The notes under the pieces were generated by a model. That model made no database searches. It was not told the origin of the DNA and saw only the letters and a list, made by a program, of their open reading frames with translations. Made by a program: the position numbers and the translations under genes. This document shows, piece by piece, positions 3,656 through 60,103 of a stretch of 64,000 nt of DNA. Origin of the DNA: Chiridota heheva (Eukaryota > Echinodermata > Holothuroidea > Apodida > Chiridotidae); NCBI GenBank assembly GCA_020152595.1, contig JAIGNY010002073.1:765001-829000 (forward strand), written 5' to 3'. Every line of letters begins with the position of its first letter. The first letter of the stretch is position 1.

Positions 3656-4371
3656 TAGTCCACCAGTTAAGATGATGTGGTGTGGCCCAGGAAGCTGCTG
3701 TCACCCTGGGGGACCTAGGCCTAGATGGAAACACCTGAGGATCCCTATGAATACATAAGTAAAATAGGCAGAGTGTACGTGCTAGTATAAGAAAAAAATA
3801 CAGGGGGGGCATGTTGGTATACCTACATGTAAGCTACAGGTGAAACAAGATGTTGCATTTGGATACGCCAGCACTAGTTATGGAATCATTTAACATTGTT
3901 CGGTTGTAATTTCTTTCACTTTAACCTGTTTTTGTATGCTGACATTGTAGGATTGCTGTTGTTTACTGATCTGCGGCCTCACGAAGGTAATGGTTTTTCC
4001 TTATGCACCATCATTGAAGATAAAAGACAACAAGTTTTGGCAAAACTTTATTCAACTTTACACAACTTTCCTAAGAATATTCTTTACTAAAATATTAAAA
4101 ATCTGTTATCACTAGTTAGGTTCACAACAAATTTATTGTTTATGCACAAAATAATCCTGTAGGACAGGTGATGTTCATGTGCTGGGCAGATGATACCCAG
4201 TGAATAATTAGGTACATCGCAATATAGGAGCTGGCGCTTGTGTGAAGGCGACACTCAAATCTGCTCTCTGTTTCTTTACATTTTCGTGCATTTTTAGTTT
4301 CTCGTCAGTTGTAAATTTTTAACAGATGACTTTTACTAGCCTATGGATAAGCTTGGATTATTTTTCTAGTC
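3656..4371. other. Spacer between two opposing LINEs
   Basis: No gene recognised. A short GC-richer stretch around 3670-3740 (with CTAGGCCTAG) interrupts AT-rich sequence. The part after about 4240 could be 5' untranslated sequence of the following plus-strand LINE, but there is no direct mark of its start. Confidence 0.4.
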
Positions 4372-6468
4372 ATGTTTTACATCTATTTTTTAAGAGTAAT
4401 GTGTTTTTCAAACCTTATTAATCTTACATTACCTAGAAATAATATACACGTAAGCAGTGAACCTGGACAGGCACTAAATCATAACAATGAAAGGATTCGA
4501 TATACAAAAGATGAAATACTTCGTTTGAGGAAGCATTCTAATCACAATGGATATTTTGATGCCTTGGATGTTTCCACTTGTTCTAATATAATGGATTGCA
4601 ATATAAAGAAAAGGAGGAAAAGAGGTAAGAGATCAGGTGTAAAGCAAAAAGAACTATCAATGAATGTATCTCAAAGTACTATCAACTGGGACAACATCAC
4701 AAAAGTAACTTTGTTAGATCAACCAAAACAATACCATCGCAATGTAAAGCTTGTATCTTTAAATGCCCAATCCATGAAAAACAAAGACACAATGATTGTA
4801 GATTACCTTTTATCTGACAATGTTGATATTTGTGTTATAAGTGAAACCTGGATAAATGACAATGATCAAGCTTGGATTGAGGGTTGTGATGTAAATAAAC
4901 ATGGTTTTAACGTACTCTCATCGCATAGAGTGGGGCGTCCAGGAGGGGGATTAGCCTGTGTGTACAAAGATAACTATGTCACAAAACAAATCAAACATGG
5001 TAACAAGCCTTCCTTTGAATATGCTATATGGCGTGTGGAAATTAGTAGTACTGACGTTATGAACATTGTAGGTATCTATCACCCTCCCCGTTCCGACAAA
5101 AATCCCAGCAATTCAACGTTTGTAAATGAATTCTCCATCTTCTTAGCCAATGAAGTTCTGCAGTTAGAGAACATTTTAATAACTGGTGATTTTAATATAA
5201 GGGTAAACCACTTGAATGATAATGACGTCGTAGCATTCAAAGATAACCTTTACTCGTTAGGATTGGACCAGCATGTTCATTTTCCAACCCACAACAAAGG
5301 TAACACTGTCGATTTGCTTATATCTGAAAACCAGGGCAAATTGAAAATCAAGGAATGCTCCCAAGGCCCGTTTTTGTCGAATCACAGTGCAGTTTCTTGC
5401 ATTACAACAATTGAGAGGACTGATGTTTCTCGCAAGAAAAAGACATTCAGAAAACTGAAAAATGTGTCTGTCCAGAATCTACTCGGCGATATGGACCTTG
5501 ATAAGATCTTGCAAAGCAATGCTTGTCTTAACGAGTTGGTTGCAGTATTTGATGTGGAAGCCACAAAAGCATTAGACATACATGCTCCTCTTGTTCATAA
5601 AGTAATCACAGTAAGGGACACAAAGCCTTGGTACACAGACGAAATTAAAAAACAGAAAAGAGTGATGAGAAGAAAGGAGCGTTTATGGAAACAACTTAAA
5701 ACTCAAGAATCATGGAAAGATTTTAAAACTGAAAGGTATAAGTATAAAAAGATGCTAAAAGATTCAAAAAGGAACACAATTAACGATAAAGTAACAGAGT
5801 GTGGCAACGATCAAAAAAAATTATTCACACTTGTAGCTGAACTAACTGGCACAAAATCTAGCAACCCTCTCCCAATGGGTAAATCAGACGAAGAACTGCC
5901 AGAAGAATTCTCTGAATTCTTCATCAACAAAATTTTACAAATTCGTGATGAACTTGACCATCACCCCAAATATTCTCCAAGCAGCAGAAAGGATATTCCA
6001 CAACTCGATACTTTCAATGAACTGTCTGAGATGGAGATTCGCAAGATCATCACCTTCATGCCAACAAAATCAAGCGATTGTGATATTCTACCCACAAAGT
6101 TTATTAAAGAAGGTCTGAATGTTCTTCTCCCAGTATTGAAGAAACTCGTAAACAAGTCGCTTGAAAGTGGTGTTTTTGCCGATAATTGGAAATCTGCTCT
6201 GATACGTCCCCTCCTCAAAAAACCTAAGTTGGACTTGATACTGCAAAACTACAGACCTATTAGTAATCTTGGGTTCATTTCAAAACTTGTTGAGAAAGCA
6301 GCACTGTTTCATTTCAATACACATTGTGCTGATCACAACCTTCTGCCAGACTATCAATCGGCCTATCGTCAACATTACAGTTGTGAAACAGCCCTCACAA
6401 AAATTGTGAATGACATTCTTTGGGCCATGGAAAAAAGGAGGTGTGTGCTTTGGCAGCAATCGATTTAA
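4372..6468 (+). pseudogene. LINE ORF2 N-terminal part: endonuclease and start of RT
   Basis: Endonuclease motifs in order: LVSLNAQSM, VISETWI, GIYHPPRS, ITGDFNIRV, and LSNHSAVSC near residue 340. The last normally reads SDH, so an Asp is replaced by Asn here. RT begins with QNYRPISNLGF and YQSAYRQHYSCETAL. The frame then runs out of phase just before motif A: the motif (DLSAAFDTVDH) is present at about 6460-6493 in another frame. The upstream ATG at 4372 is only the first in frame; the true start may be later. Confidence 0.85.
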
Positions 6469-6549
6469 GTGCTGCTTTTGACACCGTAGACCATGGGTAT
6501 TGCTAAATGTTCTCGAGGCTAAATTTGGTATCACAGGAGCCGCCCTGAA

Positions 6550-7560
6550 GTGGTTCAAAGCTATCTTTTAGATCGAAAGTGCAAAGTTCAAATCGGGCGA
6601 TATATATTCCATCTCAAAAATCTACAATTCTCAGTTCCACAGGGATCGTGCATGGGTCCGATATTGTACCTTGCATATGCAAGCACTTTACAAGAAGTAA
6701 TTCCCACCCAGATTTCAGTCTACGGATACGCCGATGATCACGCCCTGGCGACCAATTTCAAAGCGAATGACAAGACATCGGAGAGACAGTCAATTACTCA
6801 GCTAGAGAAATGCATGGACAACATCAAAGACTGGATGGATCTCAACCGCCTTAAAATGAACAGTGCAAAGACAGAGTTTATTCTTTTTGGTCAGACTAAG
6901 CAGTTGCAGAAAACCGATACTCACACAATTGAAGTGGTGGATGACACTATTGAAAGATCCGACTCTGTTAAATATCTGGGTGTATATTTAGATAAAACAT
7001 TATCAATGGACAAACATATATCTCACATTTGTAGAATCTGTATGTTAAATTTGCAAAGAATCAAACTCATTCGTTCCTTTCTTTCTGTTGACTCGTGCAA
7101 GATTTTAGTTCAATGTTTAGTTATTTCACACCTTGATTATGCCAACGCTATCTTAGCCACCCTACCTAAAAGTTATCTCAACAAGCTCCAGAGAGTACAG
7201 AACTATGCTGCAAAACTCATTTTAAAATGTCACATAAGAGACAGTTCTACAGAAAGCTTAAAACAACTACACTGGCTTCCCGTTCACGCTCGAATTGACT
7301 TCAAAATCCTTACCTTAGTTTTTAAATGCCTTCATGACAGCGCCCCATTTTACCTTAAGTCTTTAATCAACTATAGAGTCAATGTTCGTTCCGGTTTGAG
7401 ATCTGCAAGTGATGATAAAATCTTAGAAATTCCCTTTACTCGTAGTTCTAAGTTTGCTGATAGATCCTTTAGTGTATGTGGCCCTAAGATTTGGAATAAG
7501 CTTCCGTACAATATCCGCAACTGCAGCAATCTTGCCCGTCAAAACTCATCTATTTATTAG
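6550..7560 (+). pseudogene. LINE ORF2 C-terminal part: RT palm and C-terminus
   Basis: It contains VPQGSCMGPILY (motif B region), the catalytic box YADDHAL, the thumb-like VKYLGVYLD motif and the C-terminal RSFSVCGPKIWNKLPYNI, then stops at TAG 7558-7560. A second break between motif A and this segment lies at about 6535-6560. Catalytic aspartates are kept, so inactivation is by frameshift rather than by active-site loss. Confidence 0.85.
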
Positions 7561-9295: not shown

Positions 9296-9507
9296 CATAT
9301 TTAATTCTCCTCTTCCACCCCCTCTCTACTTTGTTTTTATTTCACTCATGCAACTCCTCTCTCGATCACAGCTTTCTGACTTTTGTTTTTGAATTTCTCT
9401 CATTCTCCTCTGTTTCCTTTCCTTCCTACCTCTAGAATGATCTGACCTCTCAGGCACAATTTGACCCTTGTTGTCATGGTGCCGTTAAGACCTCATCAAA
9501 CAAACCT
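9296..9507 (+). mobile_element. 3' end of RNase H-type LINE (copy A)
   Basis: Nearly identical to the 3' untranslated part of the copies at 13250, 20250 and 32265: starts at ATATTTAATTCTCCTC, contains CTCTCGATCACAGC and ATGATCTGACCTCTCAGGC, and ends GGTGCCGTTAAGACCTCATCAAACAAAC. Heavily 5' truncated. Confidence 0.85.
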
Positions 9508-10516: not shown

Positions 10517-11129
10517 ATGTTCAGTTTTAAGAAAAAAAAGAAATCCTCATTGGATAACAAAGACAAAGATAAAGATTCAATTGGAAGCCAAAAGTCATCA
10601 AAAGGAGGTTTCTTATCAAGAAGAAAATCAAAATCAAAGTCCAGTCTTGTATCATTGGAAGTGTCTCTAAATAATTTGTCAGTTACATCACCAAACACTA
10701 ATGGCTCTATTAATAATGGAACAGATGGACATACTGATATTCCAAGGGAAAACAAAACTAATGGACAGACAGATTTTACGTTGAATGTAAAAAATACCAA
10801 CCCTGCTCTACCAAAATATGTGAATAATCAGCCTCCAGGGTATCAAATACTAGGTCAGCTTGCTTCAGAAGTAGAGGGGCTGCAAAGGCAATCAAGGAGT
10901 GAGTCCTCTCAGGGAAAGAAAGACTCACCTAAGAAAGCTCTTCAAGCAAACAGTAAGACAGGAGAGGTGAAGAGCTACAATGCAAAGCCATTAGAAGCTC
11001 TTCAAGCAAACAGTGAGACAGGAGAGGTGAAGAGCTACAATGCAAAGCCATTAGAGAGCTGGAAGGATGCAGAGGTCCTGGAATGGTTACAGGACAATGA
11101 ACTTAGTTACTTTGTGGAACTCTTTGAGG
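10517..11129 (+). CDS. Exon 1: basic Ser-rich N-terminus and start of SAM1
   Basis: The start at 10517 opens MFSFKKKKKSSLDNKDKDKD, a lysine-rich tract followed by Ser/Asn-rich low-complexity sequence. A 60-nt in-frame tandem duplication (10937-10996 and 10997-11056) gives two 20-residue repeats beginning ALQANS. The exon ends in the first half of a SAM domain (SWKDAEVLEWLQDNELSYF). Donor G|GTATGT; phase 1. Confidence 0.85.
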
Positions 11130-14100
11130 GTATGTACAATTTTTAAACATTATTCATAACTTTTCATGTGAACTGATGGGAAATACAGTACATAGAAAGT
11201 ACAGTAGGTTGTAAAATCATATTTACAAATTTGATTTCTTGTGAACATTTTTATGTATATGGGTATAGATCAATTTCTATATTGTCTAAATAAGTATAAC
11301 TGTATAATCTGAACAGATCAGTAAGTAAACTACAATTTCATGGAATTTTTAAACATAAATAGGAAATCATAATCTTTGTATCATTAGCTGATGCTTTAGG
11401 TGTTATAATTTCTTTTAACACCAAGAGAAATACAAAGAAACATGATTTACCTTTACCTGTCGTTTACCAATAGATAAAGCATTGTTATCATTGTTAGTGG
11501 AACTGTTATACGAATACTGTTTTGAAAAGATTATACATACATGTACGTTACATGCACATGTAATTAGCACACAATGATCTGAACATTTGTGGATGAGTAT
11601 TAAAAAAAGGCTAAAATTGACTGTAATAGGTAATGCATACTATTACATAATGCATCCATATAGGGTGTTTTCTAAGTTAAATACATTATAAGGAATGTCA
11701 GGCATAAAAATATGTTCCCTGAAGTCAAGTAAGCGTACAACATGATGTTATTAATGCCTAGCATATCATGGAAATGATTTAAATGATGCAATATCTTAAA
11801 TAAACAACATAAATGGTAATTAAACACAATGACAACCATACTTAATACCCTGAATTGTAAGACCAATTTTCATTTTGCAAAATTTCTGAAATTTTCATCA
11901 TGAGTTTCCAAAGTTTGCACCATGGAACTATATTTGATACCTACTGTGCAGTCTCTGCTTTCATGAGCTATCTAGATTTGAAAATCTGATCCACTCTATT
12001 TTAGTTTGTAAGTAAAGGGAATAGTTAGTTCTACAGGATATGCTGCAAAGACTAATGAGTTATTAACTACTGCAGTACGGTATAGAGAAAGATTTTGGAA
12101 TTTTTCATCTTTAATATGTACATGTATGGTAACATAGTGGTACATTAAAAAGTAGGACAATAAAACTAAACCAGATTTTGTAATTTTGACCAAAATGAAT
12201 AAAAGAATGTGCTTGTATTGGCTGAAAAGGATACTTAGGTCTCCATTGAATAATCAAGTACTTTGTTTGGACCCTACACTTTTCGTAAATTATGAAGTAA
12301 CCTTCAAAAATGCAATCTAGACTAGCATCCTTAAAGATTGTTCACTGTGGTTTGGTAAAACAGAACTGATAACTACTGAATGATGTTGAAGATTGCATTT
12401 ATTTCTTTTTCTTTTAAGGGTGTGAAATCGATGGAGATTATTTGATGCAAATTAATGAAGAAGATCTTAGTAAGTACAAAGATATTTATTTGAGTGAGAC
12501 AGTTCATTTAGAGAGTGAATGTGAAATGTTTTTGAATATGTCTATCTCAGTATATTGATGCATTTACTAGGACTTTTAACTTATATGTCCCCATTTTGGA
12601 ATAACATTTGGATTATTTCCTTTACTATTTTGCTCTCATTCATATAAGATCTACTTGCTTGACCAATTTAAAATCATTGCAAGGAATAATGAATGGGTCT
12701 TTAAAGGATTAGTTCAGTGGTCAAGCATGTTCATCTTATTTGAAAGAAACTTTAAAAGAAACAAAATGGCGAAGAACGCATTCCAAAATCTTATTCCGTT
12801 AAGGAAATATTTAAGTTTAAAGCTCTGTATTATCTGTGTAGAAATAAGTGGTGTAGTAAGTCTACTATGGAAAGTTGACGTCTTTATGCTCACATTCTTT
12901 ACAATTGTTAATCTATTTTAAAGAAAGTATATTTACATTTTTTACTATTTAAATTATTTTTTCTCGAATTTTATTCAGGTGGTACATGTATATTATAAAT
13001 ACCCTTACTAGATTCAGTTTTACTACTTTTTTGACAATATCCCATGGTTTTTAAACTACAAAATTGCAGGACAAAACATGATAGAATACATAAAGACTTT
13101 GACGAATCTGAGGCTATGACATCTCAACTAGTCTGATTTTAGTCGTTTCTAAACAAATAATACCAAACTTTAATCTTAGATACCTCCTTAATGGAATAAT
13201 GTTTTTGAATGCTTTCTTCACTCTTTTGTTTCCTTTGAAGTCCTCTTTCAAGGCTGTTCTTACTTCATTACTCAATCTTAAATGGGATAACCTCACCTGC
13301 CACCTCCTCCTCCGGAAACTCTTTTCTCCCACCCTCTGCAGGAAAAGTGTTCTTTTCTTCTGGATACCCAGCCATGTTGGCATCCCTGGCAATGACAGGG
13401 CTGATACAGCCACTAAGCTTGCCCTTAACCTCCTTTCTTCCCCTTTTCCCAAAACCCTCTCTGACATCAAACCGCTTATCGCTTCTCTTGTTCGTGACCG
13501 TTGGCAAACCTTATGGAACTTCCAAATTGATAACAAACTCCATGTTATCCAGCCCACAATCCCGATCAAATCCACCATCAATAACCTTTCTCGATCGACA
13601 ACGCTCATATTACCCGCCTTAGAATTGGTCACGCCCACCTCACTCACTCCCACCTCCTTATTGGTTCCCCCAACCCCTCTGTAACAATTCACTGCATCCT
13701 CACAATCCAACACGTTCTCCTTGCTTGCCCCCTGTACAACCTTCCCAAAGCTTCCCTCGCTCCCCACAACTCAATTGCTGAGTTCTTCCAGAAAAATCCT
13801 CCAGATAAAATAATCTCCTTCCTTCAGCATGCATCCCTCTACAACCATATTTAATTCTCCTCTTCCACCCCCTCTCTACTTTGTTTTTGTTTTACCCATG
13901 CACCTCCTCTCTCGATCACAGCTTTCTGGCTTTTGTTCTTGAATTTCTCTCATTCTCCCCCTGGTCTCTTTCCTTACTACCTCTAAAATGATCTGACCTC
14001 TCAGGCACAATTTGACCTTCGTTGTCGTGGTGCCGTTAAGACCTCATCAAACAAACAAACAAACTTTCATATACTGTAAGATAGACTTCTTGACCTTTAA

Positions 14101-17100: not shown

Positions 17101-20100
17101 CAGTAGGAAGCTTTATCATGCAACAAGTGCACTCATATCCTCTCATGGTGTTTTTATTTTGCATTTCAATCTTAGAGTGAGGATCAGTTCTCACTGCCAG
17201 GGTTAAACGCCAATGATGACTCAAAATCAAACCCTGAGGATAGCTGGGAGAGTGATGATGATTCTGAAAGTGAATGGAGTTTTGGGTTGCCAGGTGATGA
17301 AAAGAAGAAAAATGAGCATGCTGGGAAGGTGGAGAAGAAAACAACTCAAGATCTAAGGGTTCGCCTCAAGGAACCTGAACAAATTGAAGGTTTGCTAATT
17401 ATGCAATTTATGAAGTTATTATAGTGATATGCTAATTATTCAATTAATGACATGTTTTTATTTAATATACTTGAATGATTAGTTCAGGAGTCAGGCATGT
17501 CCATCTTACATGAAAGAGGACATCAAAAGAAAGAATATGGTGAAAAAGCATTCAAAAATATTTTTTCATTAAGGAGATATTGAAGTTTGGTATCATTGGT
17601 GTAGAAATGACTGAAATCAGACTAGTTGAGATGTTACAGCTTTAGATTCCTCAGTCTTTATGTATTCTATTATATTTTATCCTGCGAATTTGTGGCTTAA
17701 AAACTGTTTGATATGTTAGGAAAGTAGTAAAACAGAGTTTATTAATGGTAATTATAATATACCACCTTAAGATAGTTTAAGAAAAATCATTCAAATTTTA
17801 AGAAAGCTAAATAAATTTTCCTAAAAATACATTAACAATTATAAAGAATGTGAGGATAAAGATGCCAACTTTTCATAGTAGACTTACAACACCAGTCATT
17901 TCTGCACAGATGAGACAGGCTTTAAACTTAAATATCTTTTGATGGAATAAGTTATTTTAATGTTTTTTCCTTATTTTGTTTCTTTTAAAGTCCTCTTTCA
18001 TATAAGATGAATTTGCTTGACCACTGAGCTAATCCTTTAACAACAGTGAAGATGAAAATTTGCATGCTGGTTGGAACCCTTTTGGTGCCTGATTAACTGA
18101 AGGAGAAAGTCATTCTTATTCTTGGTTTGAAATTCAGATTTTTTTTAATTTCACTGATTCACCTCGTATGAACTTTCTTCTTATTTATTCTAATGATTGA
18201 AGGTTGTAAGAGTTCTGATGAGATTCAGAATGAAAAGAAAAGAAACATTGTTCTTTCAACTCTTATCTCCCAGCAGAGGAAATTTTACGTCCTCCAACTG
18301 TTTTCAGAGAAGTTCCTTCCAGATTTGAAGAGAAGCGCATCGAAGACTGGGTTGAATGTGATATTATGCAATGGCTGAGTTCTGTTGGATTAGAGAAACT
18401 AGCAGAAAGATTTGACGGTATGTGTAAAAAAATAAAACACTGAAAGTCTTCCTAACTACTTCTCTGATTGTAGGTTATGCTCTTTATTAACTGGTCTTAC
18501 AATAATCCCAGCAGTTACCCTGCTGTGGTTTTGTCACACTGTTTTGATATGAAATTAAACCCAAAGGACTTGTTTGGATAAGATTAAAAGAAATTATAAC
18601 CAATTATCTCTGTGCTTATTCTGCCATGTTGAATAGCTAACCAACAATTCTTAGAAATGTTATCTATATTCATGATAGCTACGGGCATTTCACATTACTT
18701 CTTATGGGGTTCTAAATATTTCAAATAGGTTATCAAGCTGAGGTTTTAAGCCTTAGCAACTACACAGAGCATATATAGTGATTTATTGATTTATTTCCTT
18801 TCATCCTTAAACATTTAAAATACTCGGTGTAGTCAAGCAACTGTTGGAAGACTAATATTTGATACTCCATTTTTGTTTTGACAAGCTGCTCAGTATACCC
18901 TCGTTTGGCACATATGACCTGACTGTTAAGGTGCCATTAAACCCAAACAAACAAACAGAATACAACTCATACAGGAAAGTTGAAACTCTTGGATTTCTAA
19001 CATGATGAATAATTGCCCAAAAATGAAATAGACTTTAAATAAAACTTTTAAAAACATAAAAATATCAAATATGACAAAAATAAAAGCAATAAATTCTTCT
19101 TGCATTGTCATGGGTTGAGCTATAACATCATTGATGTTTAGTTTTTAATTGTTTTATGTCAAATTTATTTTGTTACTAAACTCTCCCTGTTAAAGCCAAG
19201 ACAGTAGTGATATTTAAAATTCACATACACATCCTGAGATAGTTCCAGTCGATATAAATTCAATCATTGTTCACATTTACCACGACAAATTTCAGAAGAT
19301 GTGGAAATATACAACTACACAGATAGTGAATACTTAGGGTCCTTATAAGTTGGATGGAGTTATTCAGTGTTGCATTATATTTTCATTTATTTCTAGTAAT
19401 AAAACTTTCAAGCAGAACACCTTTCTATCCTGAAATTTTGATTTTTTTTTTTTATATGTTGATACTGTGACTGTGTGAATAATTTTTGTTCTTGCAGGTA
19501 GTGGAATAACTGGCAAGCAATTGAAGAATATTGACATGTCTTTTTAGGTTACTAAACTCTCCCTATTGTTAAATAGGCCAAAAGACAAGATTGATGCTCT
19601 CCTATAAATTCAATCATTGTTTTACTGAGATGAACCCCTTCCTTCTGGGTCCTTAGATATTTTTGCATTTTATTTTCATTTATTTCTAGTAATAAAATTT
19701 ATAAATGATTTTTTTTTTTTATATTTGATGACCTTATTCCATGTCCTCATCAAACAAACAAACAAACAATTTTTTTAGGTAAGAACTGAGATGAAGAGAT
19801 ATTTTTGAATAATGTATAAATGAATTTGATGCCTTATTCCAAGAATTACATGAAGCATCAAGTTGGCTAATAATGTATGAAAATGTAACGCTTGAGCTTC
19901 ATAGATTTGCATTTGATTAAAAAATGGAGAAAGTCACGGGTGTTAAACTTTTTCTCTATTCAGAGAAACAATTTTTACTCTAATTAGATTTACATTGAAT
20001 ATGTTTGATATTTCTGGGAAATTAAAAAGTGTGAAGATTTCACAGAAAGATTGTAATTTTAGCTGAAAAGTGTAATAAGAAATTAGAATGATACAGAGAT

Positions 20101-23100
20101 AAATTTCCTTTACCTGAAATTAGAATTGGATTTTTGGAACCTTTCCTAAAAGTTTCATTGAAGCAGAAAAACATAAATTTTGTTAAATGTTTTATTGTAC
20201 TATCATAGTATTATAGATGATATCTTATTATTTCTAAATAAATATTGTATTGCCATTTTCTCCGACTCAAAGGCTGTTTTTACTTCATTACTTAATCTTA
20301 AATGGGATAACCTCACATACCACCTCCTCCTCCAGAAACTCTTTTTTCCCACCCTCTGCAGGAAAAGGGTTCTTTTTCTTCTTGATACCCAGCCATGTTG
20401 GCATCCCTGGCAATGACAGGGCTGATGCAGCCGCTAAGCTTGCCCTCAACCTCCTCCCTACCCCTTTTCCCAAAACCCTCTCTGACATCAAACCGCTTAG
20501 CTCTTCTCTTGTTCATGACTGCTGGCAAACCTCATGGAACTATCAAATTGATAACAAACTCCATGTCATCCAGCCCAGAATCCCGATCAAATCCACCATT
20601 AACAACCTCTCTCGTATCAACAACGTTCATATTACCCGTCTTAGAATTGGTCACACCCACCTCACTCACTCCCACCTCCTTATTGGTTCCTCCCAACCCC
20701 TCTGTAACAATTGCCACTGTTTTCTCACCATCCATCACGTTCTCCTTGCTAGCCCCCTGTACAACCTTCCCAGAGCTTCTCTCGCTCCCCACAACTCAAT
20801 TGCTGAGTTCTTCCAGAAAAATCTTCCAGATTAAATTATCTCCTTCCTTTATCATGCTTCCCTCTACAACCATATTTAATTCTCCTCTTCCACCCCCTCC
20901 TTACTTTGTTTTTGTTTCACCCATGCACCTCCTCTCTCGATCACAGCTTTCTGACTTTTGTTCTTGAATTTTCCCTCATTCTCCCCCTGTTTTCTTTCCT
21001 TCCTACCTCTAAAATGATCTGACCTCTCAGGCACAATTTGACCCTTGTTGTCATGGTGCCATTAAGACCTCATCAAACAAACAAACAAGCATAGCAAATG
21101 CTCTTTTTGAAAGTAAATTTTCTTTTTCATTTGTAGAAGTAACAATGCTTTCTTTGTTTATTGTTTATTTATTTGATTATGTCTGGTTATCAACTGTTGA
21201 GTAAGCATCATATTTTCAAACATTGATAATAATTTTGAGGCTTAAACAGGTTAATTTTGTTTTGAAATTATACCTGCCTTTGTTAGATACCTTCATATAA
21301 ATGAAGCATTATTGTTATCTTAAATTTTCAGATAAAATGGAGATAACAAAAGCTTCTGACAGAGAGGCTCTCCTCTCCAACTTGTACAAACTCACCCATC
21401 CTGGCATTGATGTAGTAGACGATGAAGTATTTAGTGAGTATATTTGAAAGAATATTGGTACAATAGGCCTATTCAATGTCTCATTAGATTGACATTAATG
21501 AACTTTTACACAAAACAGATTTTGAGGTAAAGTAGTTTCCCAGAAATATTAGGGGAACCTCAAAGCCAAATTCCTGCTTAAATGCTAGTGTAAGCAAATG
21601 CTACCAGTATTTCTTAGATTTTAGCTCTGGTCAGACTGCATTTGAGTAAAGCACAGGTCCCTTTCTGGGCGTGGTTCGACAAAGGCTACTATTAATCCTT
21701 TGTCGGACTGAAATGGAGTGATTTACAGGTCTCCTTTTGAGCGTGGTTCGATAAAGATTACTATTAAGCCCTGTTGGTCTGAAATGGAGCGACGTGCAAT
21801 TCTCCTGTCTGAGTGTGGTTCGATAAAGGTTATTATTAACCCTTGTCAGAGTGAAATGAAGCGATGTGCAATTCTCCTGTTTGAGCGTGGTCCAACAAAG
21901 CATAGCGTAGTCCAACAAAGTTAACCCTTGTTGGACTGAAATGGAGAGATGTGCAGTTCTCCTGTCTGAGTGTGGTTCGATAAAGGTTATTATTAACTCT
22001 TGTCAGAGTGAAATGAAGCGATGTGCAATTCTCCTGTCTGAGCGTGGTCCAAAAAAGCATAGCGTAGTCCAACAAACTTAACCCTTGTTGGACTGAAATG
22101 GAGAGATGTGCAGTTCTCCTGTCTGAACGTGGTCCAACAAAGGTTAGTAATAATCCTTGTCAGACTGAAATGGAGTGATGTGCAGATCTCCTGTCTGAGC
22201 GTGGTCCGACAAGGGTTAATAGTATACCAGGTCAGACAAATTAGGCGACGTGCAGGTCTTCTTTCTGTGCGTGGTTTGACAAAGGTTACTATTAACCCTT
22301 GTTGGACTGAAATAGAGCGATGCGCAGTTCTCCTGTCTGAGCCTGGTCCGACAAGGGTTGATAGTAACCCTTGTCAGACAAATGGAGCGACGTGCAGGTC
22401 TCCTTTCTGTGCGTGGTTTGACAAAGGTTACTATTAACCCTTGTTGTACTGAAATGGAGCGATGTGCAGTTCTCCTGTCTGAGCCTGGTCTGACAAGGGT
22501 TAATAGTAACCCTTGTCAGACAAATGGAGCGATGTGCAGATCTTCTGTCTGAGCGTGGTCTGACAAAGGTTGCGTTTACTCCTTGTTGGACTGAAATAGA
22601 ACGACGAGCAGTTCTTCTGTCTGAGCATGGTTCAACAAAGGTTACTATTAACCCTTGTCAGGAGTGAAATGTAGCTACGTGGAGGTCTCCTTTCTGGGTA
22701 TGGTCCAAGAAGGGTTAAATCCGCCCTTAACAAATGACTTCATGAAAGCCAAGAATACATCTAAAAAATGTTGTATACTGCACAAAGGAGAATGAAAATG
22801 TATTTGAAATGTCCATTTTAATGTGCATTGACTCCCTCTGAGGCACTTTAAAAAATTACTTGTTACCAAGTCTACGAAATTCCTATCTTTGTAAAAGTTT
22901 ATATTTTTCTTGATCTTACATGTCAATGTTTTAGTGTGTAGAAGGTATACAACAAACTTCCATTTGACTAAAAGAATATTGCTCTCGTATCAACTAAATT
23001 TGTTAGAACAATTTGTGTTTAACAAAATGTACATAAAGGTACATACTTTGTAGAATATCACACTTTGTGTAATGTGTTAGTATAAGCAGTAGGTGTTAAT

Positions 23101-32100: not shown

Positions 32101-35100
32101 GTTGTATTGGTTTGTGGGTTGGAATCTAAATACTAACTTATGTATTAGTTGTGAATCTATATCTTTTTTTGTAACTTTTTTATCTTTGTTATCCATCCAT
32201 TTAGAGAAAACACAATCTAAATACATGCAAACTGAAATGATAAAAACCCCAATTTTCCACGCATAGCAAGAAGTATAAAGAAAGCACTGGAAAGATTAGG
32301 GTCCCCCAACCAGCTGCAAGACTGGAGCAACAAAAACGGTTTTAAATTCTCCAAAGACAAGACAGTCTGCATGCACTTTTGTCATTTCAACAACCTCTAC
32401 CCCAATTAACTTTGTGCTCGATGGCAATCGCATTCTTAAAGTTGAACACACAGAGTTCCTGGGTCTAACTCTAGACCCCAAGCTTACCTACAAGCAACAC
32501 ATCACCAACCTGAAACTAAAATGCAACAGCTCCCACAACATCCTCTGACTCCTCTACAACACTACTTGGGGTGCGAACCGCTTTGCTCTCCTCAAAATTT
32601 TCAGGCTCACCATTTGTGCCAAGCTTGACTATGGCAATATTGTCTACTGTGTCACTCATACCTCAACCACATCAACACCATCCAAAATGAAGCCCTCAAG
32701 CTTTGTCTAGGTGCCTACAGGACCTCCCCAATCACCAGCCTTCATGTTGAAGCCAACGAACCCCCTCTTTCCACTTAGATGTAGAAAGCTTAGCCTCTCC
32801 TATGCTTTTAGGGTCCTCACTAACACCCAGAACTCTGTTTACAACCTCATTAGGTACCCCAATTTCTCCACCCTCTTTGATAGGACTAAAACCCTATCCC
32901 CTCCCTTCAGCTTACGCATTAAATCAGACCTCTTCCATCTAGCCATCAACCCCACCACTCTCGGCACCTTCTCCTGGCCCACTTTTCCTCCTTGGGCCAC
33001 CCCCCTCCCTTCTGTCCACCTGGGCCTCTCTACTCATCACAAAGTTCAAACCCACCCTAACATCTTCAGCAATCTCCACAACCAAATTAAAGACCAACTC
33101 TCAAATTACACCTCCATCTATACTGATGGCTCCAAGGAAGGCAACAAGACAGCTGCTGCTGCTGTCATCCAAGACATCACCCTCAGTAGCAGACTTCCTG
33201 ACTACTCGTCCATCTTTTCAGCTAAGGCTAAGGCCATTCTCCTTGCAATCAACTTTATTGAGTACTCCCCGCTCAGCCACTTTGCCATTTTCTCCAACTC
33301 AAAGGCTGTTCTTACTTCTTTACTCAATCTTAAATGGGATAACCTCACATGCCACCTCCTCCTCCGGAAACTCTTTTCTCCCACCCTCTGCAGGAAAAGT
33401 ATTCTTTTCTTCTGGATACCCAGCCATGTTGGCATCCCAGGTAATGACAGGGCTAATGCAGCCGCTAAGCTTGCCCTCAACCTCCTCCCTGCCCCTTTTC
33501 CCAAAACCCTCTCTGACATCAAACCGCTTATCACTTCCCTTGTTCGGGACCGCTGGCTGGCAAACCTCATGGAACTCCCAATTTGATTATAAACTCCATG
33601 TCATCCAGCCCACCATTCCGATCAAATCCACCATCAACAACCTCTCTCGTATCGACAACGTTCATATTACCCATCTTAGAATTGGTCACACCCACCTCAC
33701 TCACTCCCACCTCCTTATCGGTTCCCCCCAACCCCTCTGCAACAATTGCCATTGCACCCTCACAATCCATCACGTTCTCCTTGCTTGCCCCCTGTACAAC
33801 CTTCCCAGAGCTTCCTTTGCTCCCCACGACTCAGTTGCTGAGTTCTTCTAGAAAAATCCTCCGTATAAAATTATCTCCTTCCTTCATCATGCCTCCCTCT
33901 ACAACCATATTTAATTCTCCTCTTCCACCCCCTCTCTACTTTGTTTTTGTTTCAACCATGCACCTCCCCTCTCAATCACATCTTTCTGACCTTTTGTTCT
34001 TGATTTTTTTTTATTCTCCCCCCTGTTTCCTTTCCTTCCTACCTCTAGAATGATCTGACCTCTCAGGCACAATTTGACCTTCGTTGTCGTGGTGCCGTTA
34101 AGCCCTCATCAACCAAACAAACAATCAATGAAAGAAATAAGAAGAGAGTAGAATCCTACACACTTTAAAAGTAACATTGAAAGAATTCCATTTGACAGCA
34201 ACAAATTGAAGAGAATTGACCGTAATACCCAAAATGTGGGAGAGGCATGCATAACATTCAGTTGTTATTAATTTGATTGAATTCCTTTTAAGTTAACAAT
34301 GTCAATTTGCACCCCAAATTCCCAACATCGAAAGATGTCAGGATATAAAAGAACCGCAGCAGACTATTATCAATTGTCTACTAACTGTGGTGTAGCGGTT
34401 ATCATACATGTCTACAGATCACGAAGCCCTGGGTTCAAGCCTGGGTTGGGTAGACACGCCAGTGCACCACAACTGGTTATCAAAGGCTGTGGACATGACT
34501 TGGTTGTCAATGTTATGTCTGTCCGTACGTCGTACCTGTGTTCTCGTCCGGGTCGTATTAAGCGTTTCGTGATAGCATTGTAATTATCATAATCGAATAC
34601 GCAGGCAACGACCCCGTCATTGTAATTGTGTGTTCCCTCGTCGTCGTATTATCAATTAACACCAAAATCAATCATATGGGAGTGAAGGAAAGCACCAACT
34701 ACTTTGAAATAGTTGGTATTATCAAACATTTAATATGGAATACTGTGAATAAAGGGTTGATTGTCTTGATGCATGCATGTTTAAAAGCCTTTCAAAGGGT
34801 AGTCATAAAATTAGTGGTTGACATCTATAAATACACTTGTTTTATAGAGGTATTTAAAAGGTACATTAAAGGTATTTGTTGAACTTAATTTTCAAGCTTA
34901 TCTGTAAAGATAATCTTTTAATATACTTCAGTACTTGCAATGTATGATCTGTATCAGCCCCTTAATATGAGCATTCTTAGCTATCAGTACATGTGAATGA
35001 ATGAAGTTCAGGTAAATCACATGGTTGTTCTGCTATTTTTTATATTTGGTAAATCACATGATTGTTTTGCTATTTTTTGTATTTGGTAAATCACATGGTT

Positions 35101-47100: not shown

Positions 47101-50100
47101 TTTGTCAATTATACATTTATCATTTATTGTGACAAAAGTAGTTAAATGCATTTGTGTTATACCTTAGTGCAATTCATTTTTTGACCATTTCTTTGCATGA
47201 CTAGTTCATCTCAGTCCTGTCTTAGTCTGCATGCATGTCACACATACTGTTTTCTATTCATGTTCATAGATGGCCAGTATAGAGGAATCACTGGAGGTAG
47301 TGGGTAGATCCAAATCATTGAATATCCCCAAGAAGAACCAAGCTGTGAAGGTCAGCCTCCTCAAATTGCTTCCTTTCTCATTATTTCTTTTTATTGCAGC
47401 AATACTTGGTTTCATCCAGCATTGTTTATTTTTCTGTCTACTCCTTTGCTTGCATCCTTTCCTTGCATCCTTTCCTTTCCATAGTCAATCTTTAATGGAA
47501 GCATGACAAAGATATATGTAGCCTTAGAAATCACAAGTGTATGCTTCACAATATGAAAAACACACACTATGCATGCAATCAAGATTTAATGCCATAGTTT
47601 TTAGTATTTTGCATGTTTTTGAAGAACCAGTGCACAGCACTTGTATTAGGATTAAGTAGAATCCGGCACATTGGCACATGTGATGTGGTCAAAGCTGATT
47701 TGCATATCTATCAATTCAATAAAATAGTGTTGCTTGATAATTGCAAAGAATGTTTATCATTTATCATGATGTTAATCATTAATCAGAACGGTATAAAAAT
47801 AAAAGTAAAAATATGATTCACTTCATTTATTGAAAGCATCCATGTTTTGCTAAGAAGGGCATAACAGCCATTTTATGACAATATCTACAGAAGGAGAAAA
47901 ATGGCAGGTCGCCAAGATCAAGTCTCAAAATGGATGCAAGGCTGCAGCAGCTTGAAGAGGAAAACAAACAGCTCCAAGAAAACCTGAAGCAGGTGCGTTC
48001 AACTAATATGCATAGGAGCCTGGTTTTGTGGCTGTTTGTGGGAACAGATATAAATTACCTGAAAATGTAATGTTACTGACATAAGCCAGAGCATAACTTT
48101 GCCAGAGTTTTACTTTGATATGCCAAGCTGCCTATGTCTGTGTGTGTAAGTTCTCTTAGATGAGCACTATTTCATTTAGCAGGTGCATATTTAATCAATC
48201 TGCTAACAAAAACAGTCAATCTAACTTTGTCAGATAACTTTTAAATGTCACCTTCTTCTGCCTAGATTTCCATTTCATCAAGTTTTACAGAAACCATGGT
48301 ATGGTACTTTCAAGTAATTCTTCTTTTGGAATTGAAATATGTAAATCTTTCCTGTCTATGCCAGTAATTGTTGTCCATTATAATTGATGAATACATTTAT
48401 GGAGGCTTGTTTTTTTACCTGGAAAAAAGGACACTTAAGAAAATCAGGAAATCTATGGCGTTTTGTGACATATGCCATTGCAATGAAGAAATCAGGTAAA
48501 GGTTTCTGCTAATATACACCCATGTGTATGGTATGACAGTCATTATTTCCACAACAAATGGTACACCTCGGATTAATGTCTACAGCATCATTGTATTTGT
48601 ATACTTCAACAAAAGAAGGCACTTACTTATTTTCCTCACTTTTTGCATTTTGTAGAATGTTGAAAAGACTGAGGCAGACATTGCTCTCCTGCTCATAATA
48701 TATTTTTATCACAATGTTTTCATTTTTATTGTTTTATGACTAGTTTGAGACCATGCAGATTGTTTTCAAACAACTTAAAAGTTCGCTTGACCGACTACAA
48801 ACAGAAACAAACCTGAAGCTTTTACAGAGAAGACAAGCCTCCAGTCCAGATTTAGGTGAGTCTAACACTTTGTCAGATAATACCTTTCTTATTGTTGCAT
48901 TGCATGTAATTTAGGTGTAGAACTTTGTGCTCAGTTTTACTTACTTCCTCGGTGCTTATAGTGCAGAATCCCAAGGTTCTCTGCACTTTACAGAACAAAC
49001 AAAACTCAACACACAAATAATCCAAGAATAAGGTAAAAACATGAAAATAAAAGATGAACACAAAACAGTTACTATACATGCTGGAAATGTTTCTCAAAGA
49101 GAAAAGTCTTCAGGTGTTTTTTGAACACATCAATGGAGGAACTTTTTTCATTTCTAAAGGGTAAAGCATTCCACAGAGGTGGACTGGGATGATATAAAGC
49201 TCAGTACCCCACTTTCTTTTTGAAGGGAAAGTAACAATTTTAATTAAATGCTTTGTACAACTGATACTGTTGTAGTGATTTTGATGGATACTTTGTAGTC
49301 TAAAAAGCTTAGGTATTGGTGTATATCAGATATGCGCTCATGGGGCAGCCTCTGCTATGTGTAAAGGATAATCGCTGAAGGGATGATTAGTATATTTCAG
49401 ATATGCGCTCATGGGGCAGCCTCTGCTATGTGTAAATGGTAATCGCTGAAGGGATGATTAGTATATTTCAGATATGCGCTCATGGGGCAGCCTCTGCTAT
49501 GTGTAAATGGTAATCGCTGAAGGGATGATTAGTATATTTCAGATATGCGCTCATGGGGCAGCCTCTGCTATGTGTAAATGGTAATCCCCGAAGGGATGAT
49601 TAGTATATATCAGATGTGCGCTCATGGGGCAGCCTCTGCTATGTGTAAATGGTAATCGCTGAAGGGATGATTAGTATATATCAGATGTGCGCTCATGGGG
49701 CAGCCTCTGCTATGTGTAAATGGTAATCCCCGAAGGGATGATTAGTATATATCAGATGTGCGCTCATGGGGCAGCCTCTGCTATGTGTAAATGGTAATCC
49801 CGAAGGATGATTAGTATATATCAGATGTGCGCTCATGGGGCAGCCTCTGCTATGTGTAAATGGTAATCCCTGAAGGGATGATAAGTATATATCAGATGTG
49901 CGCTCATGGGGCAGCCTCTGCTATGTGTAAATGGTAATCCCTGAAGGGATGATTAGTATATATCAGATGTGCGCTCATGGGGCAGCCTCTGCTATGTGTA
50001 AATGGTAATCCCTGAAGGGATGATTAGTATATATCAGATGTGCGCTCATGGGGCAGCCTCTGCTATGTGTAAATGGTAATCCCCGAAGGGATGATTAGTA

Positions 50101-53100
50101 TATATCAGATGTGCGCTCATGGGGCAGCCTCTGCTATGTGTAAATGGTAATCCCTGAAGGGATGATAAGTATATATCAGATGTGCGCTCATGGGGCAGCC
50201 TCTGCTATGTGTAAATGGTAATCCCAGAAGGGATGATTAGTATATATCAGATGTGCGCTCATGGGGCAGCCTCTGCTATGTGTAAATGGTAATCCCTGAA
50301 GGGATGATTAGTATATATCAGATATGCACTCATGGGGCAGCCTCTGCTATGTGTAAATGGTAATCCCTGAAGGGATGATTAGTATATTTCAGATATGCGC
50401 TCATGGGGCAGCCTCTGCTATGTGTAAATGGTAATCCCTGAAGGGATGATTAGTATATATCAGATATGCGCTCATGGGGCAGCCTCTGCTATGTGTAAAT
50501 GGTAATCCCCGAAGGGATGATTAGTATATATCAGATATGCGCTCATGGGGCAGCCTCTGCTATGTGTAAATGGTAATCCCTGAAGGGATGATTAGTATAT
50601 ATCAGATATGCACTCATGGGGCAGCCTCTGCTATGTGTAAATGGTAATCCCTGAAGGGATGATTAGTATATATCAGATATGCGCTCATGGGGCAGCCTCT
50701 GCTATGTGTAAATGGTAATCCCTGAAGGGATGATTGTTTTTCCTGCATCTTTATGTTTGAACTTATTCTACATGTAGTGAAAACTTCATGAAATTTGCTG
50801 AGGGACAGATTTGGTTTATTTCAAATTTGCATTAGGGTTGCAGTAGGGGCTAATTCTTTACTGAATAAATCTGAGTTCACATGGTCTAATATGCATTTAC
50901 ATGTTTAGTTCTTTTTGTCTCTCCTCTTAGATTCCTTGCCTAGAGATCTAGCCCAGCCCATGTTCCATTTGGAAAACATCTCACAAGAAATTGAAACACA
51001 GCAAGCCAAGATTAATAAAATGAAAAAGGAGATTGAACAGAAAAGAATAACAAATTCAGACAGGTTAGTCATGACTGTTTTTTGACGATTTGGAGAACAT
51101 CTTTATGATTCAATGGGTGAAAATCACCATTTAATTTTTTATATGTAAATCTGCTCAAATATGTTAGATTTATTGTGAGGAATGTTGCTTGTTTGTTTTG
51201 TATTCTTAAAACAGGAAAATTACCCAAGTGTATCTTTACAGTTAACTGGCTGTTTTATAGACAAATAAATAACAGTTTTCTCATAGTCCTGACTGAAGTG
51301 GAAAGATTATTGTTGTTCTTTTCAGCAGTACAACAAGCAGCTCCAGGAACGCTCTTGCGATAGAAGAAGCTTCTTTGATTGGTCTGAAGTTTGAGCAAGC
51401 TAGATTACTTTGCATGATGGAGGTAACCATGACCGACTACCAGTTATCAGTGATGAAGGTAGGTGTAATAGAGGGGGAGGTCCATGAAGAACAAATACTG
51501 ATGGGCGTTTTTAAGGGAGGTAGCTGTGCAGAAAGAAAATCAGGAATGTTACTCATTTATTATATCTCTACTGTTTTCTGAAGTACTCAAATCTCTGTCT
51601 CCTTGCATTGATCTTTTTGGTGGTAAGCTGAATTTTATTGGGACAGCCTTTATTTAAAAGTGGCAAGCTGAGACGATCTTGTATTGTTTCATGAGTACCT
51701 TATACACTCAGGTTTGACACATTTCAAGTTCTGTGGCAGTGACAGCACAGCAGCATATTTCCCAATAAGTTGTTACAAATAGCAGGTTGACGAACACTGA
51801 AAAAAGATCAAAGAAAGCACAAAATGATTGTGACGTCAGTGTCAATCATTTAAAATATTTTTGAATAATCAAGTTTTGCTTCATCTTTTCTAAAGAATTT
51901 CAAATCTGATAAAAGTTTCAATTGAGTCTTTGATATCCATTTTTCATTTTGCAAAGATTATTTTCAAGATTTTTAAAATTTGCCACTGGATATCAAGGAT
52001 TGTATTTGCTGTTCTTTTTACAACAGAGAAGAGATCTTTCAGAAAACAAATCAATCAGCTGTCATCTACCAACCAATCAGATGCAGTCTATATTTAGTGC
52101 CACTGTTAGTGCGGGTGATGAGGGCTATCAGTTTGGGCTCGGTACAGCAGATGGCAGAGATGGTGTATTCATAGACAGATGCCCACATGGAACCAGGATA
52201 AGATCTGGAGATAGGTAAATACTCTCATTAATCACAAATAGTATATTATTGTTGTAGTAGGGAAAAGAAAGGTTTTTCACTTGTACACTTTACTTGATAA
52301 TGCTGACAAGTGGTGCTTTTAGGTTGCTTATTTGAAATAACTTAAAGGATTATTGGTGCCGCATGTTTCTATATTTGATGTTACTGAAGAACCAGGGAAA
52401 ATGAGCAAAAAGATGCACAGACATGGTTTAGGATTATAGATGTCTCTTCGTCTGTGCAGCTGACGGCTCGTCTTTCTACTCCTCAAACATGTGTTTTATA
52501 GCATTTAGCTTACCTTCTCTTGAGGTGCATTATTTATTCTTTGATTTATTTCAACCTTTCTATCTGCTGTAAAGTTACTGATTGCAGAAGAATACTTAAA
52601 ATATTGCAGGAGTTGCCCTGAAAACCACAAATAGTATACTCGCTCCATTTTTGACAGAATTTTGGAAATCAATAATCACTGCGTGCTGAATTCGTCCATT
52701 GCTGATGTGAACACAAAGTTAAACAGCACCTCTACAGCAACATTGGTCCTACTCAGAGAAATGGATCATGATGTCATCCATTTAAATGCAAAGGTCACTG
52801 ACCTTGAAGAGCAATTAGAGTCAGCAGCTACATGTCTAGAGGAGGATCATAGGGAGGCAGATTTCCTCAGGGAGGAGGTCTTGAAACTCAAGTAAGAAAA
52901 TCTGTATTGTTCTTGATACCTCTACGAGTTTATCATCATATGTTGACTAGGTTTAAATTGTACCCCTAAACATCTTTTTGATCATGTAATTTGACTGCTG
53001 GAAAATTATGTCACAAAATCCATGGTTTCAATAAGTAGTGACTTTCTAATCTCACATCATTACTTTATAGTAATATGTTCCAAAATAAAGCTAGAAAATT

Positions 53101-56100: not shown

Positions 56101-59100
56101 TTACACGTTCTGGTTTCATATTATCAAAAACATAATACCCTGACACCTTTGCCAGATTTATGGAAATTTGATACAGAACATCATGTAGCAAATTTGTAAT
56201 GCACCTGGGTATAGGTTTTATGTATTTAAATATTTTGTAGTATATAAGTAATTGAAACAAAATCCATTTATATTTAAATACTCAAGCAGCCACTGGTGGT
56301 AGAGACTTGCAATCATTTAAATCAAATATTAATTAACTTTACTGTGATAACATTCATAGCTCACAATCTCTTCAGGTATGAAACTGTTTTGAGGGATACT
56401 TTGATAAACATAATTATCAGGGTAAACAAACAACTACAAATTTTGGCAGTGAGTCTGCATCATTGTTTACACGTTTTGGTTTCCATATTATTATTTTCCT
56501 GACAGCCTTTGCCAAAATGATGTAAGTACAGTACAACAAGTTGTTATGTGCACTGTGCTGGGAATAGATTTGGATACTAATAAGCCTGTAGTATAATAAA
56601 AAACATTGAAGCAAAATATTTATTAAGAAATCAATTTGTTGTCATTTATAATAACAGGTTCTTGCATAGAAAATACTTAAAAGATGATGGAGATACATGA
56701 AGGCATCTTATCATTCATTCATTGGAGATGCAATTAGTTATTGTATATATTTCTATCATTTACTGGAAGATTTACATTCTCTTTAACAGGAAGTCAAGAA
56801 AAATGTTGGTGATATTTTGCAAGAGATTGATAATGACATGCCCCTCTGGGAAGCCTTGAAAAGCTTCAGCAAGGCAAGCAAACACTACATATTCATCCTC
56901 TCTTAGCTTGTAACGTATTTGCTTCTCTCTTTTACCTTTCCCTTTCCACCTCTAATAACATGGTAGTGATCACATTTCCTGACCTGATGATAATGCAAAG
57001 CCTGTACATTGTTCCACACACATATCTGGAGAAAGACTGGAAATTGTAATCGCAATGGATTTAACTTTTTGTTGCAAATGGATGTTTGAAGTAGAAATCA
57101 AAAATGAATACCTTATTCTAATAAACCTGCTCTAATAAGTGCCCACCCAATATTTTGTGGCTGATAACATAATTTATTTCTTTAATGTGAAATCTTAGAA
57201 TAAGTTTTATTACATTTCTTTCTTATTTTGCATCTGACATTCAAGATGGTTTTGTGGTGGTTTATTGTGGGGCTATAGTAAACCTATAGAACCATTTCAC
57301 ACAATGCAGGTGGAATAGCACACTGCCTGGCTGCACACAACTCCAGAGTATGGGCGCTTATCAAGAAACTTTGGGCCTAAAAAGCAGAGCAATGCTTATT
57401 ATATTGAAAACGGTAGTATGAATGATTACTTGAGTGGGTGGGAAGCACCAGTGGAGTTGTAATGTTAGTCATCTTTAAATTGTGAAACCTTTTTGCAGCT
57501 ACTCTCTTTGTGATATATGACAGAAAGCATCATCTATTTACTTTTTATTTTAAAGGGTGAAATCCTAGAAGTGTTTAGAGAGGAACTACAAGAGGCAGGG
57601 AGACAAAAGCAGTACCTGGACCAACTCTACACCCTCATGCTGGAGAAGGCTCCGCACTTACTGCAGGTCATGGAGGAGGACAACGAGGCAAGGTGAGTGA
57701 TTCACCTTTCTAATTTATCATGAATTATACAATTCCCTATTACTGAAATATTTGCCTATTTTTGGTATTGAGCGTGTACTTTTCTGTATCGAGCATGCAC
57801 TTTATGGTATTGAGCATGTACTTTTTGGTATTGAGCATGTACTTTTCTGTATCGAGCATGTACTTTTTGATGAGCATGTATGTACTTTTGTGTATTGAGC
57901 ATGTACTTTTGGTAATGAGCATGTATGTACTTTTTGTGTATTGAGCATGTACTTTTAGGTATTGAACATGTACTTTTTGGTATTGAGCATGTACTTTTGT
58001 GTATTGAGCATGTACTTTTGTGTATTGAGCATGTACTTTTTAGTATTGAGCATGTACTTCTTGGTATTGAGCATGTACTTCTTAGTATTGAGCATGTACT
58101 TTTGTGTATTGAGCATGTACTTTTCGGTATTGAGCATGTACTCTTTAGTATTGAGCATGTACTTTTTAGTATTGAGCATGTACTTTTAGGTATTAAGCAT
58201 GTACTTTTTGGTATTGAGCATGTACTTTTGTGTATTGAGCATGTACTTTTGTGTATTGAGCGTGTACTTTTCGGTATTGAGCATGTACTTTTTAGTATTG
58301 AGCATGTACTTTTGTGTATTGAGCATGTACTTTTGTGTATTGAGCATGTACTTTTGTGTATTGAGCATGTACTTTTGCATTGAGCATGTACTTTTTAGTA
58401 TTGAGCATGTACTTTTAGTATTGAGCATGTACTTCTTGGTATTGAGCATGTACTTTTTGGTATTGAGCATGTACTCTTTAGTATTGAGCATGTACTTTTG
58501 TGTATTGAGCATGTACTTTTGTGTATTGAGCATGTACTTTTGTGTATTGAGCATGTACTTTTGGTATTGAGCATGTACTTTTAGTATTGAGCATGTACTT
58601 TTAGTATTGAGCATGTACTTCTTGGTATTGAGCATGTACTTCTTGGTATTGAGCATGTACTTCTTAGTATTGAGCATGTACTTTTGTGTATTGAGCATGT
58701 ACTTTTCGGTATTGAGCATGTACTCTTTAGTATTGAGCATGTACTTTTTAGTATTGAGCATGTACTTTTAGGTATTAAGCATGTACTTTTTGGTATTGAG
58801 CATGTACTTTTGTGTATTGAGCATGTACTTTTGTGTATTGAGCGTGTACTTTTCGGTATTGAGCATGTACTTTTTAGTATTGAGCATGTACTTTTGTGTA
58901 TTGAGCATGTACTTTTGTGTATTGAGCATGTACTTTTGTGTATTGAGCATGTACTTTTCGGTATTGAGCATGTACTTTTTAGTATTGAGCATGTACTTTT
59001 TAGTATTGAGCATGTACTTCTTGGTATTGAGCATGTACTTCTTGGTATTGAGCATGTACTTCTTAGTATTGAGCATGTACTTTTGTGTATTGAGCATGTA

Positions 59101-60103
59101 CTTTTCGGTATTGAGCATGTACTCTTTAGTATTGAGCATGTACTTTTTAGTATTGAGCATGTACTTTTAGGTATTAAGCATGTACTTTTTGGTATTGAGC
59201 ATGTACTTTTGTGTATTGAGCATGTACTTTTGTGTATTGAGCATGTACTTTTGTGTATTGAGCATGTACTTTTTAGTATTGAGCATGTACTTTTGTGTAT
59301 TGAGCATGTACTTTTGTGTATTGAGCATGTACTTTTGTGTATTGAGCATGTACTTTTCGGTATTAAGCATGTACTTTTTAGTATTGAGCATGTACTTTTT
59401 AGTATTGAGCATGTACTTCTTGGTATTGAGCATGTACTTTTTGGTATTGAGCATGTACTTTTGTGTATTGAGCTATATATATTTTTGGTATTAAGCCCTG
59501 TTGTATTGTGCTATGCACTTATTCAGTCTTGAGCCATGATATTGTTGTCAAACTATGTATGTCTTCAGACCAAAACAGTGTCCATTTTAAAGCAATGTGC
59601 AATCTCAGCAAGCAATGTACATTGTCAGTACTACTTCCTATTTTTTTACTTTTTTAATGCCCTGAAAAACATTTTACATTTTCATCTGTTGCCAACAGAT
59701 CTTTTAGTGTTTATGGCCCCAAAATGTAGAGCAGTCTCCTGGGCAATGTGATAAATAGTAATACTATTCAAATTTTTAGGAAAAAGCTAAAACCCCATAT
59801 TTTTACTAAAAGACAATATTTTATGATTTTTAGTATTTCTACTTGTTAAGATATTTGCATGTATCTAGCCTTTTTTATATTGATAACTTGTTTTTTATAC
59901 ATCATTTTCTACAGTTAAGTATTATCTGTAAATATTGCTATTTTAAAAAATTATAGAATTGAACCATTTAGGCATTTTTTTTTTTTTTTTACTATTATAT
60001 TTCCTACATTTTATTTCATTTTATGTGAAGTGTACTCATTACATTTATATTTATTGCCTGTAATGGGATAATAATAATTAATAATCTTAATCTTATCCAT
60101 ATA

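Follow-up and report, generated by a model that had tools for sequence, protein, structure and literature searches.

Interleaved flanking sequences at a SAM2 splice donor in Chiridota heheva point to a chimeric assembly consensus

In the assembly of Chiridota heheva (GCA_020152595.1; 1.1 Gb in 3,744 contigs), positions 19541-19778 of the window, i.e., the 64,000 nucleotides from 765,001 to 829,000 on the forward strand of contig JAIGNY010002073.1, are probably a chimeric assembly consensus rather than a real insertion that breaks the SAM2 gene. Judging from the letters of the sequence, we put the probability of this reading at about 0.6. The stretch is largely a patchwork in which an upstream intron sequence (source X) and the downstream flank (source Y) alternate, each in its own order, and it ends in a LINE-like tail. 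The initial annotation had taken it for a retroposon that duplicated the splice donor, and missed the mosaic of both flanks that makes up most of the insert.

Exons and splice donors of SAM2

The exons and donors concerned are the following.
18277..18417, + strand: SAM2 exon A, encoding the 5' part of the domain; start 18277 placed from the frame; donor GTATGT (GACG followed by GTATGT)
19498..19547, + strand: SAM2 middle exon as assembled, 50 nt, preceded by ...TTCTTGCAG
19548..19553, + strand: donor GTTACT, weak (log-odds -1.1), where the insert begins on its left
19779..19784, + strand: strong donor GTAAGA after TTTTTTTAG, log-odds 5.4
21332..21433, + strand: SAM2 exon C (DKMEITKAS...), end taken from a GTGAGT donor

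The reading frame of exon A continues into ...LAERFD and ends in phase 1, which exon C carries on; skipping of the middle exon (18417 to 21332) preserves the frame. As assembled, the middle exon terminates in ATG TCT TTT TAG, in which the TAG is in frame. With a hand-entered position matrix, the donor of exon A has a log-odds score of 3.4, against 5.4 for GTAAGA and -1.1 for GTTACT, and GTAAGA is located 231 nt past GTTACT, beyond the (CAAA)n tail. The initial annotation was accurate on these points: the exon has an in-frame stop at its end (19547) and no good donor, and a strong donor follows about 230 bp later, after the tail.

One extra T would lengthen the middle exon to 51 nt and give the product ...IDMSFL joined to DKMEI. 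The Pfam profile SAM_2 (PF07647) gives 50.2 bits with the 51-nt middle exon, which is above the curated cut-off, 41.4 bits with XX at the end of the middle exon, and 18.9 bits with the middle exon skipped, which is below the cut-off of 20.5. Reading frame and profile favour the 51-nt exon, and they agree with the earlier proposals that this exon supplies the missing SAM segment and is one T short. The T tract has 5 residues to the left of the insert and 7 to the right, where the frame and the SAM profile lead one to expect 6.

A protein search of the genome looked for a SAM2 paralogue from which the end of the exon could be judged. The good matches were confined to the gene itself, all three exons of which were recovered, and three weak matches were observed outside the window (E = 0.13 to 0.95); in this search the short middle exon itself reached only E = 0.10, so that a paralogue with short exons could be missed. 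Elsewhere in the window, a 60-bp tandem duplication (10935-11060; ALQANS.TGEVKSYNAKPLE twice) is found in a long open frame that leads to a first SAM-like segment, for which Pfam support is weak (SAM_3, E = 0.33).

At 19770-19784, TTTTTTTAG is followed directly by GTAAGA, which we take to be the form of a joined acceptor and donor, i.e., of a recursive splice site. If the insert is real, such a site could allow the RNA to lose the insert as a 231-nt intron.

Composition of the insert

The sequences that make up the insert, and those that adjoin it, are as follows.
18896..19149, + strand: dispersed high-copy repeat of ~250 bp with an internal CAAA run, located in the intron beside X; 39 or more further matches (86-93% identity), a minimum because 40 of 1195 candidates were scored
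19172..19457, + strand: source X, upstream intron sequence, of which five exact patches recur in the insert
19549..19741, + strand: interleaved mosaic of exact X and Y patches
19745..19769, + strand: LINE 3' tail CCTCAT(CAAA)n, the last ~25 nt of the insert
19772..19841, + strand: source Y, downstream flank including the strong donor, of which 58 of 70 bases recur in order

The duplicate content of the insert comes from adjoining sequence of the same contig. The five X patches (17, 19, 9, 27, and 19 nt) represent 91 of the 286 bases of X, in order, and there are six Y patches (9, 11, 11, 9, 8, and 10 nt), with gaps in Y of 4, 1, 7, 0, and 0 bases between successive ones. Along the insert the patches are arranged as Y X X Y X Y X Y X Y Y, and the positions in both X and Y only rise. 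At four of the joins, neighboring patches share 1-3 bases. The listed patches all have sense orientation, the strand on which the patch search was made, and reverse-complemented Y scores 0. Exact patches cover 141 of the 206 bases of 19541-19746; for the other 65, among them an uninterrupted 38 nt at 19565-19602, there is no exact local source.

The sequence TTTTTAGGT occurs at 19541-19549 and again at 19772-19780, i.e., on both sides of the insert, as had been noted before. Because this pair is also the first of the six ordered Y patches, a target-site duplication is not required to explain it.

When 19547-19772 is compared with the upstream intron, the similarity score is 188; 200 shuffled sequences reach at most 111 and 209 other windows at most 110, so that the likeness exceeds chance. 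After masking of the X blocks, in which overlap bases common to both sources were kept for Y and N was excluded, Y (19781-19850) still has a score of 24. The highest score among 26,344 other windows of 70 nt, taken from 264 kb, is 10; windows around the locus had been dropped from this set, and some of the rest fall in 22.5 kb of withheld bases and are unable to score. In a two-source merge, the real Y adds 18 and random windows add at most 6 (n = 393, from 400 after removal of windows near the locus), and the real X adds 58 and random windows at most 15 (n = 285, from 300 after the same removal). The match to Y is not due to chance.

A scan for chains with shifting offsets over 3,967 segments, from which segments that were more than half tandem repeat had been left out, returned 17 chains in four places: nine at the insert locus, five in a tandem array near 614 kb of the same contig, and three short ones (38-41 nt) in two other places. 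Apart from this tandem array and the two places with weak chains, no second mosaic of the kind was found in the 264 kb. When segments are ranked by matches to both flanks alone, with offset shifts not required, the locus is eighth, behind tandem repeats; in the tandem repeat at 24.9-26.1 kb, the offsets are nearly constant. Other tandem arrays in the window are one of ~72-bp units (CTGTCTGAGCGTGGTCCGACAAAGG...) at 21660-22718, in the next intron, and two long ones at 57759-59496 and 49315-50735, with 21-bp units (open in several frames) and 71-bp units, respectively.

The LINE tail

Twenty-three nucleotides of the insert tail, CCTCATCAAACAAACAAACAAAC, agree base for base with the end of the LINE copy at 14042. 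The 21-nt tail pattern GACCTCATCAAACAAACAAAC, with GA in front, occurs in the genome 4,121 times without mismatch, against 0 times when read backwards, and the pattern preceded by C, G, or T occurs 5,275 times; in the insert it is preceded by T. One LINE family has four 3' ends in the window, each on the + strand and with a CCTCATC... CAAA-type tail (9477-9505, 14028-14064, 21054-21090, and 34090-34129), and those nearest to the insert are 1.3 kb downstream and 5.7 kb upstream. Two long + frames at 4351-7560, with endonuclease-like and reverse-transcriptase-like sequence, appear by eye to belong to another LINE.

The remaining ~195 nt of the insert had no other copies in the genome searches. 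The search with 19400-19900, which skips very common words and is thus strong but not absolute, returned only the query locus and two short matches, one of 38 nt in the intron upstream of it and one of 43 nt at the end of the tail. A 31-nt stretch from the part without a local source has one occurrence in 1.1 Gb at up to 3 mismatches. The insert without its tail scores 60-63 against the LINE 3' end, where shuffles have means of 55-65 and 48 to 119 of 200 score no lower than the real sequence. A dispersed SINE or LINE body was rejected on this evidence, as no copies were found and similarity to the LINE 3' end does not extend beyond the tail; so was the whole LINE 3' end as a third merged source, which had seemed plausible by eye.

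Repeats of at least 10 nt were sought around thirteen other tails: 9 have none, 3 have repeats of 10-11 nt that include tail letters, and 1 (L033) has a repeat of 47 nt. The last was considered as a long target-site duplication and rejected, as it is part of a tandem repeat.

A chimeric consensus as the preferred explanation

In the explanation that we prefer, the assembler would have combined three sequences in one path, namely the upstream intron (X), the genuine flank on the downstream side (Y), and a LINE 3' tail, the tail perhaps coming from an allele with a LINE insertion at this site. The merged path would keep pieces of each source in order and then continue into Y proper, and the short T tract and the lost donor would be edge effects of the merge. 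The gene would then read through, with a 51-nt middle exon and the GTAAGA donor (...TTTTTTAG followed by GTAAGA). Such a merge would have taken place in the computer and not in the organism, with the LINE allele as its possible trigger.

This explanation is favored because a consensus from misplaced or collapsed reads would take up each source in its own order, because T tracts of 5 and 7, where 6 residues are expected, are in keeping with it, and because a polymerase would need four re-entries into Y near its points of exit. Against it, plain global alignments of X with Y, run with six scoring schemes, place 0 or 1 of 5 Y patches correctly, and shuffled Y, aligned with three of these schemes, is placed just as well; the simplest merge, in which the X-Y alignment sets the patch positions, is therefore not reproduced. 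The 65 of 206 bases that lack an exact local source also count against it, as does the eighth place of the locus in the ranking that does not require offset shifts. Apart from the tandem array and the weak chains, the mosaic has no parallel in the 264 kb, so that no systematic artefact is indicated. No alternative haplotype contig was found among the scored candidates (2/2; 40 of 1195).

The earlier retroposon reading is borne out only in part: the tail is retroposon-like, but the genome searches gave no sign of a retroposon body. The claim that SAM2 is damaged relies on a stretch whose composition suggests an assembly merge; if the insert is real, skipping of the exon preserves the frame but takes the SAM match below the cut-off. 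If the insert is an artefact, it bears a recognisable signature, two flanks interleaved in order, which a reader of the sequence can mistake for a retroposon with a target-site duplication, and by which an intact gene can appear broken. If it is real, it would show with unusual clarity how two templates were used in alternation next to a splice site.

Real insertion and other alternatives

Real template switching, with its two forms taken together, is the most serious alternative to the chimeric consensus, though on balance it is unlikely. Slightly less probable is a germline insertion in which a LINE reverse transcriptase or a repair polymerase made ~8 switches between two neighboring templates, moving forward along both, and closed the product with a LINE tail, which would have moved the donor by 231 bp and disabled a SAM domain.

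In the first form, a polymerase would have changed templates repeatedly as a break was repaired or DNA was replicated (polymerase-theta end joining, MMBIR, or serial slippage), copying the flanks and a nearby LINE tail. We regard this form as doubtful, although it is the stronger of the two. It would account for patches from both flanks in direct orientation, for the four joins with overlaps of 1-3 bases, and for a tail of a kind that is present close by on either side; templated inserts built from flanks are described (PMC5068794). The order of the patches is harder to reconcile with it: Y is re-entered four times after X patches, 4, 1, 7, and 0 bases past the point of exit, and X is likewise resumed in order. 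If five X and five Y blocks were placed at random (the last two Y patches counted as one), the observed order would arise once in 14,400. Moreover, the X patches are located 90-375 bp from the site, compared with the ~85% of polymerase-theta inserts that are reported to be primed within 10 bp of the breakpoints (PMC5068794).

The second form is a LINE insertion in which the reverse transcriptase copied only the (CAAA)n tail and then jumped to the host pre-mRNA, with TTTTTAGGT as the target-site duplication. The tail does belong to a LINE with more than 4,000 tail copies, the listed patches share the sense orientation that a transcript would give, and TTTTTAGGT is present on both sides; chimeric retrogenes formed by double LINE template jumps are described (PMC2104539). 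This form is nevertheless improbable, as the enzyme would have to change ~8 times between two parts of a single transcript and take up each of them again in order, and all five other LINE tails with T in front are ordinary LINE copies that have no mosaic (5/5; two of them, L039 and L042, are nearly the same sequence).

Marginally less probable still is that the intron-exon unit was duplicated in tandem long ago and that its second copy decayed through deletions. The five colinear X blocks and the ~95% identity of a 38-nt block are in favor of this. Against it, near-perfect blocks beside large gaps are unlike neutral decay, and the masked control on Y indicates that the Y patches are real copies. 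A duplicated unit of X, exon, and Y would be expected to leave Y before X, not shuffled into it; this explanation was rejected because deletions cannot interleave two sources.

An ordinary SINE-like retroposon with a CAAA tail and a target-site duplication, as first proposed, is very improbable: the LINE-like tail with its >4,000 genome copies and the flanking TTTTTAGGT stand, but no other copy of the body was found, the body is unlike the LINE 3' end, and local sequence, i.e., the mosaic of X and Y, accounts for most of it.

Comparison with known systems

In the parts consulted of the literature on false duplications, slippage, polishing, LINE integration, and templated insertions, the exact interleaved pattern was not found, and three described systems resemble it in part. 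Templated inserts derived from flanks are attributed to templated synthesis with primer-template switching, in a single cycle or in several (PMC5068794). As in the polymerase-theta insertions described there, flank pieces make up the insert and the joins have short overlaps; unlike in those insertions, the patches here come from as far as 375 bp away, and both sources are strictly in order and repeatedly resumed.

Double LINE template jumps are described as yielding chimeric retrogenes, which share with the insert a LINE-derived part and direct repeats at the ends (PMC2104539). They differ from it in that they involve one or two jumps between different transcripts, whereas here ~8 switches within one transcript would be needed.

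Haplotype divergence and read errors cause false duplications in assemblies, including false exon gains (PMC9516828). Compared by sequence alone, the second copy in the insert is a patchwork of two neighbors and not a whole allele as in such duplications; like them, it gives a contig two versions of local sequence, next to an exon, and changes the gene model.
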